Source: Rhodomicrobium lacus (GTDB lineage: Bacteria; Pseudomonadota; Alphaproteobacteria; Rhizobiales; Rhodomicrobiaceae). Taken from it: 64,000 nt of DNA. The position numbers were made by a program, and so were the translations under genes. Where the stretch lies: NCBI RefSeq assembly GCF_003992725.1, contig NZ_RZNF01000012.1, forward strand, positions 1,054,001 through 1,118,000, read 5' to 3'. The notes below the pieces were generated by a model. The model was not told where the DNA came from, made no database searches, and worked only from the letters and a program-made list of their open reading frames with translations. Positions 1 to 42,572 of this stretch are shown here, piece by piece (position 1 is the stretch's first letter; each line of letters starts with the position of its first letter).

Positions 1-399
1 CCCGCGCAGGCTGGCGCACAGTCTTGGCGGCGCTCACAGCCGGCAGTGACCCGTTTCAAGGGGGTCAGCGCTGAAAGGAAGTCCGACGAGATGCCGGTCA
101 CCCCGGTGCTGTCGTCAAGTGACGCCAGGAAGGCGTTCGCCGATGCGCCGTCCGCTCACCTGCGCCCGGGACTTTACACCGAATTCGTGACGAACGATCA
201 TCGCCGTCTGGCGCTGGTGATCGTCAGCCGTGAGCCAATCACGGATCAGGTCATACCGGATAACGCCAGGCTCATGTCCATAACAGAGGCCGGAACCGGC
301 AATGTCGTGAGCTTCGCGTGGGGCCGCTGGATCTATCGCGTCGCAATCGAGGACAAAGGCATGGAGCCCGACGCTCCCGTTGTCCAAAAGCGGATCTAG
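1..399 (+). CDS. C-terminal part of an unrecognised protein (5' end outside window)
   Basis: The frame is open from base 1 to the TAG at 397-399, so the gene probably begins upstream of the window. Internal start candidates are a GTG at 46 and an ATG at 91, neither with a convincing ribosome binding site. The visible 132 residues begin Gln/Ala/Arg-rich. They then form a compact mixed segment with hydrophobic strands (RLALVIVSREP, GNVVSFAWGRWIYRVAIED). No family is recognised, and there is no signal peptide or membrane segment in this part. A terminator hairpin lies about 450 bases downstream. I am fairly sure it is coding, and unsure of its start and role. Confidence 0.5.
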   Translation, partial: PAQAGAQSWRRSQPAVTRFKGVSAERKSDEMPVTPVLSSSDARKAFADAPSAHLRPGLYTEFVTNDHRRLALVIVSREPITDQVIPDNARLMSITEAGTGNVVSFAWGRWIYRVAIEDKGMEPDAPVVQKRI

Positions 400-848
400 C
401 GGGCTGGTTTTCGGGTTCTGCCGGGCACAGTCCGGGAGCGATGAAATCGGCTCAGCATATTCGCCAAGTTCAGCTTGACCACGAACCTCGTTACGCCGGT
501 TCACATTGGCGAGCTGTGACCTTTTCTGCAGCCTGCCGGTGCTCCTTTTGATCCAGACATTTGCTCGCAAGCTTGCTGCACACGGATGCGAATGTCGAAA
601 TCGGACCACCAGATCACCCTGCGCCAAAGCGGCGTCGATGCGACGCGAACAAGCCTGATCCTCTCTGCCATCAGGAGCGTGAGCTACTTCCGGTTTACGG
701 CTCGACGCCATGCGTGCCCAGGCCGTCAACTCGCTTCTGTTCGACAATAATCTTATCTCACGCAGGTTCCTGGCGGCGGGGCTGTGCGACGCGCCACGCG
801 CTGTGGAAGTCCGGGTCACGAAGCGGACACCGCACCCGCGAAAGAAAA
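400..848. other. intergenic region with one dispersed repeat copy
   Basis: About 450 bases without a supportable gene. The reading frames here are antisense or out-of-frame and resemble no family. The only structure seen is an imperfect inverted repeat at 550-602, described separately. Confidence 0.5.
550..602. repeat. dispersed inverted-repeat element, degenerate copy
   Basis: Left arm 550-564 (GATCCAGACATTTGC) and right arm 588-602 (GCGAATGTCGAAATC) are separated by 23 bases. The unit is followed by CGGACCAC. A second copy with perfect 15-base arms, the same 23-base loop and the same CGGACCAC flank lies at 29799-29851. The shared architecture shows a repeat family; its function is unknown. 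Confidence 0.6.
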
Positions 849-882
849 AGCGCCCACGGCTGGACCGCGGGCGCTTTTTTTC
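849..882 (-). terminator. Rho-independent terminator, probably bidirectional
   Basis: An 11-bp stem with one mismatch (849-859 with 865-875, 5-base loop) is flanked by T7 on the plus side and A5 on the other. It lies about 35 bases past the stop codon of the leftward transpeptidase gene and could also stop rightward transcripts. Confidence 0.8.
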
Positions 883-910
883 TTCTGACATCGGGCAAGA
901 AACGCCGCGA

Positions 911-1969
911 TCAACGTTCCATCTTTTCCGCGGCGCTGGCCTTGATCGTCAGCTTGGCGTACCTGACGTGCGCGCTGGCGCGCTGCCTGCAATGCGGGAA
1001 CTTCAGCGGGCAAATCTTGCTGCTGATCGCCGCCTTCAGGTCATGCCCGCTCCGCGAGCCGCCTTCATTGAAGACCTTGTGAAGCGTCGGCATGGTCGCC
1101 GGAGCTTCGGGTTGCGGCTGAGGCTTCTGATCGATTGCAACAGGCTTGATGTTGTCGGAGGCGTTGCTGGCCTCGTCCTGACGCGGAGCCTGACGCTGCT
1201 TTTCGAGCGGCTTGCAGCCCGGAAGCTGGACAGCGTGGCGAGCCTTGTCGCCGCGGCGGTCGGCGAAATAATAGCGGTTGTCGCAGATATAGGCCATGGG
1301 CGGCAGGCGGTCGCGGTCGAACAGAAGATCTGCGCGGCGCAAATCGGACCAGAATTCGTTCAGCTTGCGTGTATCTTCCAGCTCAGGGGCATACTTGGCA
1401 AAGCGGAAGGGCAGCGCGAGCACCGGCACATGCGACTGGCCGCCGCGCAGAGCCGCGCGAACCGCGTCGTAGACTTCCTCCACATTCGCATCCTGAATGG
1501 CGAAGCAGCCGATCGAGGAGCATTTGCCGTGAATGAGGATGCTCGATCCGCTGCGGCCGTTCATTTTGTCGAACGCATTCGGATAGTTGATGTTCATGGC
1601 GCGATGCCAGCGGGGGTTGGGGCCGATGAGGTCATCCCATTCCACGCGATACAGGCCTTCCGGGGACTGGCGATCCCCCTCGTACATCTTCGGGCCGAGG
1701 CCGCCCGCAAACTTGCAGATGCCGTAGGTCTTGAAGAGTTCGAAACGCGGACCTTTTTCGACCCAGAGTTCCAGTGTCGAGGTTTGCTTGTAGATCCGGA
1801 TGAAGACGGGAGAACCGAGCTTCATGCCTTTGCCTTCGAACTCTGCAGCGAGCGCATTTTCCTTCTCAACCGCGCCGCGCGCATCGCGGCTTGTGGCGGA
1901 GGCTCCCTGAAAGGATGCCAGGCACAGGACGAACGCGCTTACCAGCACGCAGGCTAATCGATACTGCAT
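911..1969 (-). CDS. YafK-type L,D-transpeptidase (YkuD domain), exported
   Basis: A predicted periplasmic L,D-transpeptidase that would cross-link peptidoglycan or attach proteins to it. The N-terminus is a Sec signal (MQYRLACVLVSAFVLCLASF, cut near GASA). The catalytic domain carries the YkuD signature ILIHGKCSSIGCFAI with His and Cys in the usual HxK...GC arrangement, preceded by PEGLYRVEW as in YafK proteins. After the domain comes a Gln/Pro-rich linker and then a basic tail with two cysteines, longer than in typical YafK. I chose the ATG at 1969 because AAGGAG lies 5 bases upstream; a GTG at 1975 overlaps that site. It is a single-gene unit ending at the terminator near 850-880. Confidence 0.85.
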   Translation of the reverse strand: MQYRLACVLVSAFVLCLASFQGASATSRDARGAVEKENALAAEFEGKGMKLGSPVFIRIYKQTSTLELWVEKGPRFELFKTYGICKFAGGLGPKMYEGDRQSPEGLYRVEWDDLIGPNPRWHRAMNINYPNAFDKMNGRSGSSILIHGKCSSIGCFAIQDANVEEVYDAVRAALRGGQSHVPVLALPFRFAKYAPELEDTRKLNEFWSDLRRADLLFDRDRLPPMAYICDNRYYFADRRGDKARHAVQLPGCKPLEKQRQAPRQDEASNASDNIKPVAIDQKPQPQPEAPATMPTLHKVFNEGGSRSGHDLKAAISSKICPLKFPHCRQRASAHVRYAKLTIKASAAEKMER

Positions 1970-2710
1970 CTTCACTCCTTGTAAACTACGCCAGACCAGC
2001 GCTCGCGCTGAATGGCGGTTTGAAGCTGTCCCAAGTCATGGGAAGAACAGGCTCAAGCTTCATTTCCAGAATCGGAATGTGATCTAAGTATGACCACGCT
2101 AATACAGATTGATACAGCGTTTTAGTACAATTTTATTTAAAGATTTTATCTGCGTTAATTTCAGGAAGCCTAACTTCATAACATTGAATTTGCAAGGCAA
2201 TATGTTCGCGAAGATAATTCGATAACCTTTCAGACCTGATTTTTCTTCCGAATACTGTAGAAATTAATACGCCATCGCAGACAAGCGAAACCCGACGGAG
2301 AGCCGCGCAAGGCTTTGAAAACAAATCGAAAAAACATATCCCTCTGCGCAAGACCGCATCGCCGACAAGACCTCACGCCGAGTTAAAGCGCCCTGATGTC
2401 GAGAGCGATCTGCGAGCAACTTGGACAGTTGTCAGCCGCCGGGCTTAATGATCGGCGTTAATCTGCTGCGCGACGGCGCTACGCGGCGCCTTGAGCGTAT
2501 AATTGCCCCGTTGTTCAGCGCCCTGCGCGCTTTTTGCGCACTTCCACCCGCATCGTAATCGCCCGACGCGCAGCCTCGGAGCGCTTCGATAACCGATCCT
2601 CAAGCAGGCGACGGCCAATTTGACAAATTCCGGGCTACCGTCAGCCGGTTTCGCCAGAACGCGCGCTTCTGTCGCAGATACAGGCCGTCATAATATTGCA
2701 CACCAGAACT
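1970..2710. other. long intergenic region with an AT-rich patch
   Basis: No gene is supportable. Bases about 2085-2350 are clearly richer in A+T than the rest of the window. The only notable frame there, a 72-codon minus-strand ORF at 2133-2351, has no ribosome binding site and no family resemblance. The region leads up to the sigma-54 promoter at 2713. Confidence 0.5.
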
Positions 2711-2711
2711 C

Positions 2712-2728
2712 TTGGCACGGCAATTGCT
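2712..2728 (+). promoter_or_regulatory. sigma-54 (RpoN) -24/-12 promoter
   Basis: TTGGCACGGCAATTGCT matches the RpoN consensus TGGCAC-N5-TTGCW with the required GG-N10-GC spacing (-24 element 2713-2719, -12 element 2724-2727). Transcription would start near 2739. The match is seen directly; activity is inferred. No clear enhancer-binding-protein site was identified upstream. Confidence 0.75.
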
Positions 2729-2738
2729 TTAAATCTGC

Positions 2739-2854
2739 TTGCGCTGCGCAAGCCGTGATGGTCGGATTGGCGTGACGTGACCCAGTTGGAACGGGAAACT
2801 CAGTCGCCGGTTGTTCGGGGTACTCCCTTGCCCCCGATAACCGGCGCTTTTTTT
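2739..2854 (+). ncRNA. candidate sigma-54-dependent small RNA, about 115 nt
   Basis: The predicted transcript starts about 12 bases after the -12 element and ends at a strong intrinsic terminator. It opens with a perfect little hairpin (TTGCG-CTG-CGCAA, 2739-2751), has a single-stranded middle around 2752-2800, and closes with the terminator stem. No ORF of useful length lies inside. It is not a sRNA family I recognise. The downstream phyR-like start is at 2982, beyond the terminator. The alternative is a leader or attenuator for that gene. Confidence 0.55.
2805..2854 (+). terminator. Rho-independent terminator
   Basis: A long hairpin (about 16-bp arms with a few mismatches, CGCCGGTT... with ...AACCGGCG, 2805-2846) is followed directly by a run of seven T. 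It is oriented for rightward transcripts and lies between the sigma-54 promoter and the phyR-like gene. Confidence 0.85.
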
Positions 2855-2981
2855 GGAAGAACAGGGCGCAGCACCAACCTCAGACTAACTTTCAGCTTTT
2901 CCCGCACTTTCATCTCCAGTATGGTCGGATATCCTTGCCGAGCCAATGCTTCGGGCTTTTTACTGAGGGTTCCGTTCGATA

Positions 2982-3713
2982 ATGAGCGATGCTGCCTCCA
3001 GCGAACTTATAAAGAATATATTTCGATATGCTTCGTGCATTCTCGGAAACCGGCAATTGAGCCGTATTGCCATTATCGAGGCTTTTAAGGCGCGGGCCCT
3101 GAAGGGCGGATCGTCGAGACTTGAGCTTTACCGCCTCGTGAACGAGTATTCCGCGTCGAATGCGCCTCTTGCCGACGTTCGCTTCAGCGGAGGGCGCGGT
3201 ATCGCCGCTGAACTTCTGCGGCTTTCCGGCGAGCACCGCCAGATCGTGGCCCTGCGCGCTGTCATGGGCCTGCCGTTTGTCGACGTGGCGGAAGTGATGG
3301 GGATGACCGAGCCCGCGGTTCGACGGGCATATATTTCATCGATCCGGGAATTGCGCGCCAAACCCGCAGTGCTGATAATCGAAGACGAAGCGATGATCGC
3401 GCTCGATCTCCAGAAAATTATCAAGACGCTCGGCCTTTCCGTCGCCGGCATCGCAAAAAATCGAGCCGAAGCCTTGCGCATAGCGGGCCAGTCTCGACCG
3501 AAGCTGATTGTCGCCGATTATCGGCTCAGGGACGAAACCGGTATCGATGTGGTGAATGCGATCCGCGAACAGATCCACGCGGACGTCATTTACCTCACCG
3601 CGCATCCGGAAGCTGTCACCGAGCAGCTTGGCGCGGCAAGCGAAGTGGTGCTGGCAAAGCCGTTCAACCCGCGCGCACTGGTCGCCGCTGTCCAGTCGAA
3701 GCTCGCGGCGTAA
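2982..3713 (+). CDS. PhyR-like response regulator (sigma-factor-like domain plus receiver)
   Basis: PhyR proteins control the general stress response of alphaproteobacteria. When phosphorylated, their ECF-sigma-like half sequesters the anti-sigma factor NepR and frees sigma EcfG. Residues 1-125 look like sigma region 2 and region 4 (LSGEHRQIVALRAVMGLPFVDVAEVMGM). Residues 128-243 are a CheY-like receiver with the acidic pair E134-D135, phospho-acceptor D179 (VADYRL), T206 and K226. At 243 residues it is slightly short for PhyR. The usual neighbours nepR and ecfG are absent, so it may be a paralogue rather than the master regulator. The ATG at 2982 has a weak GAGGG 12 bases upstream. Confidence 0.82.
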   Translation: MSDAASSELIKNIFRYASCILGNRQLSRIAIIEAFKARALKGGSSRLELYRLVNEYSASNAPLADVRFSGGRGIAAELLRLSGEHRQIVALRAVMGLPFVDVAEVMGMTEPAVRRAYISSIRELRAKPAVLIIEDEAMIALDLQKIIKTLGLSVAGIAKNRAEALRIAGQSRPKLIVADYRLRDETGIDVVNAIREQIHADVIYLTAHPEAVTEQLGAASEVVLAKPFNPRALVAAVQSKLAA

Positions 3714-3811
3714 GGCGGGGTCCCGAGCGGCTGCCAGAGAAGGCCAGAGCCGGGTCCGATCCATGATCCAACCCGATCGGTGAATCCGCCTTCATTTCCG
3801 GAAGAGCCCGT

Positions 3812-3828
3812 TGCCGATCTGATTGCGA
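3812..3828. repeat. 17-bp fragment shared with palindrome at 42571
   Basis: TGCCGATCTGATTGCGA here is identical to 42571-42587, where it forms one arm and loop of a perfect palindrome. It looks like a half-copy of a dispersed element. Confidence 0.5.
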
Positions 3829-3850
3829 AGCCAGCCCTGCTATGGAACGA

Positions 3851-4261
3851 TCACGGCTGCTTTTCGAAGTCGCCATCGACATAGTACCAGCGGCCATCTT
3901 CGCGGACGAAGTGGCTCGTTTCGCGGATTTCCCACACGCGGCCATTCGCCTTGTAACGCGCGACGAATTCGACATCGGCGGTGTCGGGTCCGGTGACATC
4001 ATGACGCAGAACTTTCAGTCCCAGCCAACGGCGTGCCGATTTCTCGACATCGAGATCGGTCGGACGCGTGCTCTCGTGCCAGGTTGCGAGCAGATAGTCC
4101 TGAAGCTTCAGCCCGAACCCCGTATAGCGGGATCTCATCAGCGCCTCGGCGTCCGCCGCAGGCTCGCCATCATGCAATCTTTGGCAGCACCGCTCATAGG
4201 TAAGGTGGCTGCCGCAGGGGCAAGGCCCACGATACGTCTTTTCCTCTGTCATGTCGGCCAT
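3851..4261 (-). CDS. ychJ: YchJ-family (UPF0225) protein with SEC-C zinc motif
   Basis: A small soluble protein of uncertain function. It begins with a SEC-C-type cysteine cluster (CPCGS...YERCC) expected to bind zinc. The following domain has the YchJ pattern ALMRSRYTGFGLKLQDYLLATWHESTRP and ends in the NTF2-like stretch VEFVARYK...SHFVREDGRWYYVDGD. The ATG at 4261 has GGAAG just upstream and gives 136 residues; a start at 4303 would add an unlikely leader. It is divergent from arfB, and the two starts are about 170 bases apart. Confidence 0.85.
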   Translation of the reverse strand: MADMTEEKTYRGPCPCGSHLTYERCCQRLHDGEPAADAEALMRSRYTGFGLKLQDYLLATWHESTRPTDLDVEKSARRWLGLKVLRHDVTGPDTADVEFVARYKANGRVWEIRETSHFVREDGRWYYVDGDFEKQP

Positions 4262-4428
4262 GTCACTTCCGTTTGCGCACGCTCTCTCAATGGCGGCCAG
4301 CAAATCCCGCCATCGAACCGCGTGCTAACCCGCGTTCCTTAATCCGTATCGAAGACGTCGGCGATAAGCTACAAGCGAGGGTGCCTTTTTGGGCGACAAA
4401 GCAACACAACCAGGCGGGCAGGATCGGG

Positions 4429-4851
4429 ATGATTGCGGTTACGGACAGGATCGACCTCGACGAGGGCGAGATCGCCGTCACGTTCATCCGCGCGAGCGGC
4501 CCCGGCGGTCAGAACGTCAACAAGGTTTCGACCGCAGCGCAACTGCGCTTCGACGCACGCCGCTCGCCAAGCCTGCCTGATGCGGTGCGATGGCGACTTG
4601 AGCGCATCGCCGGTTCGCGGTTGACGAAGGAGGGCGAGATCGTGCTCACGGGCGGCAGTTACCGCACTCAGGAGGCCAATCGAAAGGACGTCATCGACAG
4701 GCTCGTTCGCATGATCCGGCAGGCCGCCATCGAGCGGCCTGTCCGCAGGCCCACGCGTCCGACGCTTGGCTCGAAACAGCGGCGGCTCGCCGGAAAGTCG
4801 AAGCGGAGCGAAGTCAAGCGCCAGCGGCAAGCACCCGCCGCCAGCGATTAG
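4429..4851 (+). CDS. arfB: alternative ribosome-rescue factor ArfB (peptidyl-tRNA hydrolase, YaeJ/ICT1 family)
   Basis: ArfB releases peptides from ribosomes stalled at mRNA ends, hydrolysing peptidyl-tRNA with a release-factor-like GGQ loop. The motif SGPGGQNVNKVST is at residues 23-35 (GGQ 26-28). The C-terminus is the expected basic tail that enters the empty mRNA channel (KQRRLAGKSKRSEVKRQRQ). Starting at ATG 4429 gives 140 residues, the usual family length; the frame extends upstream to 4273 without family similarity. The window also encodes tmRNA, so this cell has two rescue routes. Confidence 0.92.
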   Translation: MIAVTDRIDLDEGEIAVTFIRASGPGGQNVNKVSTAAQLRFDARRSPSLPDAVRWRLERIAGSRLTKEGEIVLTGGSYRTQEANRKDVIDRLVRMIRQAAIERPVRRPTRPTLGSKQRRLAGKSKRSEVKRQRQAPAASD

Positions 4852-4899
4852 CGTGGTTTCGCCCCGCGTCATCGATTGATGCCGCAGGGCTGCCTCCGG

Positions 4900-6264
4900 T
4901 TAAGCGGCCACGGCGGGCAGCTCGGAAAGGGCTGTCGCAAGCGCGCCTTCATCGTAGTCCTGATCGATCATCCGGCCTTCGAAATAGCTGATGTACGCGC
5001 CCATATCGAAATGGCCATGGCCCGAGAGGTTGAACAGGATGGTTTCGGCCTTGCCTTCCGCCTTGCAGCGCAGCGCTTCGTCGATCGCGCACCGCACCGC
5101 GTGGGTCGACTCGGGCGCCGGCACGATGCCTTCGGCCCGCGCGAACTGAACGCCCGCATCGAAACACGCCCTCTGGTGATAGGCGCGCGCCTCGATCAGG
5201 CCCAGTTCATGGACATGCGAAACCATCGGCGCCATGCCGTGGTAGCGAAGGCCGCCGGAATGCGTCGCGGGCGGCATGAACGTCGAGCCGAGCGTGTGCA
5301 TCTTGACGAGCGGAGTCAGGTGCGCGGTGTCGCCGAAGTCGTAAGCGTACTTGCCGCGCGTCAGGGTCGGACAGGAGGCGGGCTCCACGGCGATGATGCG
5401 ACGCTTCCGGCCGCCGCGCAGGTGCAACCCGATGAACGGGAACGCAACGCCGGCAAAGTTCGAGCCGCCTCCCGTGCAGCCGATGACGATATCCGGATCG
5501 TCCCCCGCCAGCTCGAATTGCTGGATGGCCTCCAGGCCGATGACGGTCTGGTGGAGCATCACGTGGTTCAGCACCGAACCGAGCGCATATTTCACCGCAG
5601 GGTCTTTGACGGCGATCTCCACCGCTTCGGAAATGGCCATGCCGAGCGAGCCCGGGCTGTTCGGGTTTTGCGCAAGGATGGCGCGACCGGACTCCGTCTG
5701 ATCCGACGGCGAGGCGATGCAGCGCGCACCATAGGTTTCCATCAGCGCGCGGCGATAGGGCTTCTGATCGTAGGACACGCGGACCTGGAACACGGTCACG
5801 TCGATGCCGAACAGCGCGCCCGCGAAAGCGAGCGATGCGCCCCATTGTCCGGCGCCCGTTTCGGTGGACAGGCGCCGAATTCCCGCCTCCTTGTTGTACC
5901 AGGCCTGAGGCACGGCGGTATTCGGCTTGTGCGATCCGGCGGGCGAGACGCCTTCGTTCTTGTAGTAGATCCTGGCGGGAGTGCCGAGCGCCTGTTCGAG
6001 GCGGCGCGCGCGGTAGAGCGGCGACGGCCGCCACATGCGATAAACGTCGCGGATCGGCTCGGGGATTTCGATCTCGCGCTCGCTCGTCACTTCCTGCTCG
6101 ATGAGCGCCATCGGGAACAGCGGTTCAAGATCGGCGGGACCGGCGGGCTGTTGCGTGCCCGGGTGCAGCACCGTTGGCAGCGGCACCGGCAGATCCGCCG
6201 TGAGATTGTACCAGAATTTCGGGATTTGCGTTTCGTCGAGAACGTATTTGAGTTGGTTGCTCAT
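4900..6264 (-). CDS. tryptophan synthase beta-like protein, TrpB2 type
   Basis: A PLP-dependent enzyme of the TrpB2 group, which makes tryptophan from indole and serine. The PLP lysine is K113 in NEGVSPAGSHKPNTA, followed by the RLSTETGAGQWG substrate loop and the phosphate-binding GCTGGGSNFAG. TrpB2 proteins have about 450 residues and an N-terminal extension compared with TrpB1; starting at ATG 6264 gives 454. GGAAGG sits 5 bases upstream of that ATG. The frame continues upstream to 6417 but that part resembles nothing. There is no trpA or other trp gene nearby, so it probably salvages indole or supplements a canonical TrpAB encoded elsewhere. Confidence 0.9.
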   Translation of the reverse strand: MSNQLKYVLDETQIPKFWYNLTADLPVPLPTVLHPGTQQPAGPADLEPLFPMALIEQEVTSEREIEIPEPIRDVYRMWRPSPLYRARRLEQALGTPARIYYKNEGVSPAGSHKPNTAVPQAWYNKEAGIRRLSTETGAGQWGASLAFAGALFGIDVTVFQVRVSYDQKPYRRALMETYGARCIASPSDQTESGRAILAQNPNSPGSLGMAISEAVEIAVKDPAVKYALGSVLNHVMLHQTVIGLEAIQQFELAGDDPDIVIGCTGGGSNFAGVAFPFIGLHLRGGRKRRIIAVEPASCPTLTRGKYAYDFGDTAHLTPLVKMHTLGSTFMPPATHSGGLRYHGMAPMVSHVHELGLIEARAYHQRACFDAGVQFARAEGIVPAPESTHAVRCAIDEALRCKAEGKAETILFNLSGHGHFDMGAYISYFEGRMIDQDYDEGALATALSELPAVAA

Positions 6265-38697: not shown

Positions 38698-38761
38698 GTT
38701 CTGCTTCTACACGATGGGCCAACGGCCATGAAGGAAGTGGCGGGCTTCTGTTGCCCGGCGC

Positions 38762-39083
38762 CGCCAGCCGCGCCTGACAGCAGCTACGCCGTCAGGACTT
38801 TAGGTCGGTGCAGTTACGCCGCAATCGCGACGGGACGAGCACCAGCATAGTTGTCATTCGCAACTATCATTTTGGCCCAATACGGCGGTACCATGCCGAG
38901 CGAAAGACTACCTTTTACACCCTCGTCGATCCTATTTCGCCCCCATCAAAAACCGTCGCCCTTACAGCTTGGGCTTCGCCTTTCGACGGCTTTTGGTGGA
39001 GGCGCCGGGTACCGCCCCCGGGTCCGATAGGCTTATTACGATATCCGTTTATCGCCATAGCTGGCGAACCAGCAAAAGGTAAT
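38762..39083 (-). ncRNA. ssrA: transfer-messenger RNA, permuted two-piece alphaproteobacterial form
   Basis: tmRNA rescues stalled ribosomes and tags the nascent chain. Reading leftward, the acceptor piece (about 39083-38994) comes first and ends GGCGCCTCCACCA at 38994, with a T-arm stem CCGGG/CCCGG before it. The coding piece starts at 38944 with GGGGGCG, which pairs fully with CGCCTCC of the acceptor end (one G-U). It continues GAAATAGGATCGACGAGGG, like the 5' end of standard tmRNAs, and carries the tag frame. The 49 bases between the pieces are presumably removed. Outer boundaries are approximate. The gene lies between mrp and sspB on the same strand. Confidence 0.93.
38814..38861 (-). other. 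tmRNA tag reading frame
   Basis: From the resume codon GCG at 38861 the frame encodes ANDNYAGARPVAIAA and stops at TAA 38816-38814. The ANDNYA start is typical of alphaproteobacteria. The ending VAIAA differs slightly from the common LAA end that ClpX recognises. Confidence 0.9.
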
Positions 39084-39184
39084 ATAGAGAGTCTCCAGCC
39101 CGTTGGAAAGACGGCGGTGCGAGAATGTCTCCATGCGCAGCATGTATGTCACGCCGGCGCCGCAGATTGCCGCCCGATGGCCGT

Positions 39185-42390: not shown

Positions 42391-42572
42391 CGGCGGAGCG
42401 CGATGCGCCCGTTTGGGTGCGATCGGGCGCAACGCAGCTCTGATCGAATTTTAGGCAATTGGCCAGCGGACCAGTCGCCGCATGCAAACGCAAGCGACGG
42501 GACCGGCATGCGACGCACGCGGATCGCCTGCGGATCACATCCGCCGCCGACCTTCAATAAAGGACCGTTCTG

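Follow-up and report, generated by a model that had tools for sequence, protein, structure and literature searches.

A candidate sigma-54-dependent small RNA with an NtrC-like upstream dyad, conserved in Rhodomicrobium

RpoN-driven small RNAs (sRNAs) have been established mainly in gamma-proteobacteria, with Qrr, CrcZ and GlmY as examples. In Pseudomonas aeruginosa nitrogen limitation is reported to induce the sRNA NrsZ through NtrB/C and RpoN (PMC9308961), and NrsZ is described as at least 226 nt long, processed, adjoining ntrC and carrying the motif ACAGGCAG. In Sinorhizobium meliloti, MmgR (alpha-r8) is described as an NtrC-induced trans-acting sRNA of 77 nt with three stem-loops, the first of which has an anti-SD motif in its loop, and is listed with both RpoD and RpoN motifs (PMC7143759); the same source lists an RpoN promoter motif for SmelC165 and other rhizobial sRNAs. 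NfeR1 (alpha-r14) is reported to have a sigma-70 promoter that NtrC binds at TGC-N11-GCA and represses, and an RNA with three CCUCCUCCC loops (PMC10746234). EcpR1, with the conserved loop UCCGCCGCAUCU, is placed next to divK-pleD, and the RpoN motif before it is described as non-functional under the conditions tested (PMC4414408). As far as these accounts go, rhizobial promoter maps give RpoN motifs, some of them before sRNAs, as predictions (PMC7143759, PMC3616915, PMC4842269).

Here we describe a candidate sRNA of this control type in Rhodomicrobium (Hyphomicrobiales), a genus of budding purple nonsulfur phototrophs in the description available (PMC8104044). The window, which is the whole stretch of 64,000 nucleotides that was analysed, lies on contig C12 of a 3.88 Mb Rhodomicrobium lacus genome in 24 contigs (G000). 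Elsewhere in the window an alphaproteobacterial permuted tmRNA gene is found at 38736-39113 on the minus strand.

A first-pass annotation of this DNA had pointed to a sigma-54 element with GG-N10-GC spacing, and the element is present with exactly that spacing. The -24/-12 promoter TGGCACGGCAATTGCT occupies 2713-2728 on the plus strand and reads TGGCACG-N4-TTGCT, with GG at 2714-2715, ten intervening bases and GC at 2726-2727. It fits the consensus TGGCACG-N4-TTGCW at 12 of 12 positions in G000 and in its relative G004, and at 11 of 12 in the relatives G001 and G002; across these four genomes 13 of its 16 columns are invariant. In the 64-kb window this is the sole match to the consensus without a mismatch. 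Allowing up to two mismatches gave 8 matches against 11.06 expected, so that the weight is carried by the perfect match alone. Genome-wide, TGGCRCGNNNNTTGCW matched 11 times compared with 5 for the reversed control; nearly half of these matches could therefore be due to chance, which makes conservation decisive. Five of the 11 precede nifH, a second nifH-type gene (probably anfH, judging by an AnfA-like activator 1.3 kb away), nifB, the hydrogenase small subunit gene and an IscA-type gene; one is the sRNA site, and the five others carry no assignment. The pattern is thus meaningful in this organism, yet it is no proof for any single site.

The genome encodes an rpoN domain. In G002 we found no match to the sigma-54 DNA-binding domain despite a completeness rating of 99% and conserved sigma-54 promoters, and this gap may reflect a contig break or missing assembly. 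As a separate observation, six of the seven upstream regions of glnK-type genes (the second P-II gene) in the family (L185, L209-L213) carry TTTGGCAC-N5-TTGA, with GA replacing GC at the -12 position; L214 is without it.

From a start placed 12 nt past the -12 element, a predicted sRNA of about 116 nt would span 2739-2854 on the plus strand. It would end in the intrinsic terminator at 2805-2854, a hairpin (2805-2846) followed by seven T residues (2848-2854), in which the conserved CTCCCTTGCCC at 2823-2833 forms the loop and the start of the 3' arm. The fold of 2738-2852 has an energy of -50.4 kcal/mol (z -2.79), equalled by 1 of 200 shuffled sequences, and the strong terminator that the first reading had proposed is indeed there. 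A simple terminator scan of positions 1-6000 returned 7 sites against 6.6 expected and did not list this one. The nearest recognised gene upstream, encoding a YkuD-domain protein (911-1975, minus strand), is divergently oriented, leaving the terminator with no evident plus-strand gene except the predicted RNA.

In four of the five genomes of the genus, promoter, RNA and terminator have been conserved together, always upstream of the same PhyR-like gene. Identity to the G000 sRNA ranges from 85 to 91% in G001, G002 and G004, and is 85-87% for the match that runs from the -24 element to the terminator. In the four-way alignment 95 of the 115 RNA columns (2739-2853) are invariant (83%), compared with 74% for the PhyR-like coding sequence and 51% for its third codon positions. 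Outside these features, 36% of columns are invariant in 2547-2711, 56% in 2854-2981 and 20% across the 10 nt that separate the promoter from the start.

This pattern bears on whether the sigma-54 element is in use at all. A real sRNA might instead be produced from a sigma-70 type promoter or by processing, with the sigma-54 element silent, as the account of EcpR1 would allow by precedent (PMC4414408). Here, however, the -24/-12 columns are conserved, unlike the next 10 nt and the preceding sequence, and a sigma-70 scan gave no plus-strand site near 2739; we regard a silent element as clearly unlikely. There is also a stretch at 2788-2812, GGAAC-N16-GGTT, which we take to be EcfG-like. It was discarded as a promoter, its second part being GGTC in G004 and the start it implies falling inside the terminator.

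Coding potential was assessed in the same four genomes. A mechanically called GTG reading frame at 2777-3088 has 103 aa in G000; read from that position in the three relatives, it measures 53, 37 and 33 aa. No conserved ORF was seen within the predicted RNA among the four, in keeping with the earlier description of an ORF-free stretch. A five-codon ATG frame (MVGLA) occurs in three of the four sequences, as a small protein gene or a dual-function RNA might have it, but the frame is lost in G004 and longer frames vary in length and frame among species. We consider either of these readings extremely improbable.

Outside these genomes the sRNA was not recovered. Among 397 genomes of the order, a covariance model matched G000, G001, G002 and G004 at E below 1e-28 and gave no convincing match in the other 393, where the best E value was 0.0029. 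The order-wide search, run with stricter filters under which some weak matches are lost, gave 13 weak matches in 12 further genomes (E 0.0029-0.097). Twelve of the 13 (L150 left out) were taken as chance, their best sigma-54 site agreeing at 8 of 12 positions. A DNA search of all eight available genomes of the family returned a match covering most of the RNA in only four, and the short partial matches L006 (46 nt) and L007 (32 nt) were dismissed as they do not have the layout. An exact scan of the genome contigs with the 17-base promoter returned at least 118 stretches, and by BLAST none of those listed holds the sRNA; among the matches listed, four are confined to 23-32 nt at the promoter, and another three cover 19-24 nt of the RNA without the promoter (E 0.98). 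Rfam gave no match at the gathering score, the best reaching 13.6 bits against 50. The remaining congener, G003 (88% complete), gave no sRNA match, and identity is 52% and 34% for its PhyR-like homologues. The sRNA is therefore a genus-level one, which in one member is absent, lost or missing from the assembly.

Within the RNA, a conserved core at 2742-2803 (plus strand) has 55 of 62 invariant columns. It includes the longest invariant run of the aligned non-coding region, 18 nt at 2784-2801 on the same strand, which is mostly unpaired in the consensus fold and is a candidate target- or protein-binding site. RNAalifold predicts a 5' domain in which columns 2-11 pair with columns 32-41 and enclose a CCG/CGG stem. 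Next comes a short hairpin, CCC/GGG, around the invariant run, and the terminator completes the fold. In this consensus 97.6% of cells are paired. Two-sided changes are found in only two pairs, both of them in the terminator, where 2 of 16 pairs are changed on both sides and 2 depart through an unpaired cell; in a shuffling control on the four sequences, 45 of 500 shuffles matched the observed two pairs. The consensus structure is thus plausible rather than proven. A perfect hairpin at the predicted 5' end (2738-2752) had also been noted, and this claim did not hold beyond G000: the hairpin is perfect there alone, and of the four genomes only G000 has it in the minimum-energy form. Of the five pairs counted, one is broken in three of the four sequences and another is gapped in three of four; an alternative 5' helix retains 97.1% of its cells. 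The proposed comparison with close relatives counts against neither the promoter nor the terminator, both kept in four of five congeners, whereas the 5' hairpin is not conserved.

No conserved target was found by complement search or by duplex energies. The complement of the 18-nt run, at up to three mismatches, occurred at five sites besides the four sRNAs, against 21 in the reversed control. The two in G000 looked like chance, as did two other partial matches of the DNA search and three in other genera. Duplex energies were computed against the starts of 12 G000 genes, either nitrogen-related or adjacent, a set without glnB and glnA; the lowest z was -2.0, for nifH.

Upstream of the promoter we were able to identify a dyad, TGCGC-N7-GCGCA (TGC-N11-GCA), at 2524-2540, which is a candidate NtrC enhancer 189 nt ahead of the -24 element. 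It is present in all four genomes that have the sRNA, at -189, -202, -201 and -199, and is surrounded by an island of conservation (2511-2546, 28 of 36 columns invariant). In the same four genomes glnB carries TGCG(C/T)AATTTTCGAGCA, placed in each case exactly 90 nt upstream of the sigma-54 site of the gene. A matrix built solely from these four glnB sites gives the dyad a score of 18.27 in every genome and ranks it first in each of the four upstream regions of 300 nt. Because the glnB sites hardly differ from one another, the matrix contains little independent information. Mononucleotide shuffles reached this score in 0, 0, 1 and 2 of 2000 cases. The dyad is the best matrix site of the 64-kb window, in which the second best, at 42441-42457, scores 16.64. 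Other loci of the same genome, totalling 86,590 bases, contain one site equal to it. They are a cleaner control than a background of 442 windows, whose value of 1.1% is inflated by loci that had been fetched by the dyad pattern itself. Genome-wide the class TGCRC-N7-GYGCA is hardly enriched (35 matches against 28 in the control).

NtrC of S. meliloti is reported to bind TGC-N11-GCA (PMC10746234), and the sRNA dyad matches this form with an A/T-rich centre; the glnB sites also fit TGC-N11-GCA. The NtrC encoded in G000 scores 706.5 against a cutoff of 558.6 and has the GAFTGA motif, which matters because the NtrC of Caulobacter is described as being without it (PMC10274813). GAFTGA was not found in the NtrX of G000. 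From the sequence we infer that NtrC is the activator of the sRNA promoter.

A sigma-54 sRNA could also be controlled by another enhancer-binding protein, such as a member of the AcoR/DhaR-like pair, the HupR-like protein or NifA, with the dyad unrelated to it. Seven full sigma-54 activators are encoded in the genome (NifA, NtrC, NtrX, AnfA-like, HupR-like and two AcoR/DhaR-like), their type names being partly our own and the HupR-like response regulator so called because the hydrogenase site is 13 kb away; the dyad also stands about 100 nt farther from its promoter than does the glnB site. Set against this, the dyad fits glnB and not the nif or hydrogenase promoters, the glnB matrix scoring at most 4.6 on those of nifH, nifB, iscA, the anfH-like gene and the hydrogenase. 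Upstream of nifH, nifB and iscA there are one or two NifA sites (TGT-N10-ACA) each, at -70 to -111, but none lies within 500 nt upstream of the sRNA in three of the four genomes. Control by NifA was rejected, since the only such site before the sRNA, at -302 in G004, is not conserved. An activator other than NtrC is in our view possible but rather unlikely.

The computation yields the promoter, the RNA, the terminator, the dyad and their joint conservation. We propose, with confidence slightly better than even, that they make up an NtrC/sigma-54-activated, trans-acting and genus-specific sRNA of the nitrogen-limitation response, in which transcription, the role of NtrC and action in trans are read from these features. 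Under nitrogen shortage, phosphorylated NtrC would bind the dyad at 2524-2540 and loop across about 190 nt to the sigma-54 RNA polymerase at 2713-2728. The 116-nt RNA would then begin at about 2739, end at the terminator (2805-2854) and base-pair with other transcripts, most likely through the single-stranded stretch at 2784-2801 or the C-rich loop at 2823-2833.

The gene downstream was earlier called PhyR-like. The likeness stands, in that its product is a response regulator with sigma-70 region 4 domains and a receiver domain, but its 132.3 bits fall under the PhyR-family cutoff of 240. The gene (2982-3713, plus strand) is a syntenic neighbour, its membership of the system being putative; the order from sRNA to PhyR-like gene is kept in all four genomes with the sRNA. 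Among the eight family genomes tested, this divergent PhyR-like gene is restricted to the genus at E <= 1e-20.

This arrangement invites the reading that the RNA is a 5' leader in which an attenuator governs read-through to the PhyR-like gene. The terminator is on the same strand and ends 127 nt ahead of the start codon in G000, with synteny in four of four genomes. The best upstream pairing with a terminator arm, however, reaches -10.6 to -12.9 kcal/mol compared with -26.2 to -28.6 kcal/mol for the terminator hairpin itself. The PhyR-like gene, moreover, is preceded by a conserved block of its own (2890-2930, plus strand, 31 of 41 columns invariant), between the terminator and the start codon, which is probably its promoter or leader. 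The interval is also not constant: the promoter lies 267-269 nt from the start codon in three genomes and 406 nt in G004, where the stretch from terminator to start codon is 137 nt longer. An attenuator is less likely than an sRNA, and we judge it quite improbable, though a ligand- or protein-dependent form may be compatible with these pairing energies. The first-pass annotation had left the choice between an RpoN-controlled sRNA and such a leader; the former is now well supported by the conservation of promoter and terminator in four of five genomes, the rpoN domain and the conserved NtrC-like enhancer, and the latter has become the weaker of the two.

In G000 a loop motif of the sRNA, the 10-mer ATGGTCGGAT (2758-2767), reappears in the same orientation within the conserved leader block ahead of the PhyR-like gene (2921-2930); the leaders of the relatives retain no more than 7-8 unbroken bases of it. 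Together with the genus-restricted gene next door, this recurrence suggests that RNA and gene may form a unit. A recently arisen NtrC/sigma-54 sRNA could in that case tie nitrogen status to general-stress signalling in a budding phototrophic diazotroph. We give this whole reading, the unit included, a low probability.

We found no earlier report of this sRNA in the open-licence literature, a coverage that leaves out most subscription papers; the EcpR1 paper is the only one there to mention 'Rhodomicrobium' as well as 'sRNA'. It probably represents a new sRNA family under a type of control that is already known. Since the RNA is conserved jointly with its promoter, its terminator and the candidate enhancer, the locus offers a clean test of whether a dedicated riboregulator is under the command of the Ntr system in a phototrophic nitrogen fixer.

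Set beside the described systems, the Rhodomicrobium sRNA differs from MmgR, NfeR1, EcpR1 and NrsZ in the defining features compared. Compared by description, and not by alignment, with the published account of MmgR, it has 116 nt and a different predicted layout. It shares with NfeR1, as reported, the TGC-N11-GCA form of the NtrC site, but has a sigma-54 promoter, and CCUCCUCCC is absent from 2739-2854. The EcpR1 loop UCCGCCGCAUCU is likewise absent from 2739-2854, and the neighbours are the genes for the YkuD-domain protein and the PhyR-like regulator; for SmelC165 and the other rhizobial sRNAs with RpoN motifs, the comparison is one of table entries. The closest in logic is NrsZ, whose control, in the accounts available, is the same as that which we infer here. 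In the Rhodomicrobium sRNA, however, ACAGGCAG is absent from 2739-2854, and ntrC lies on contig C2 while the sRNA is on C12. The two are set apart by motif and location, and not by alignment, and appear to be analogous but non-homologous.
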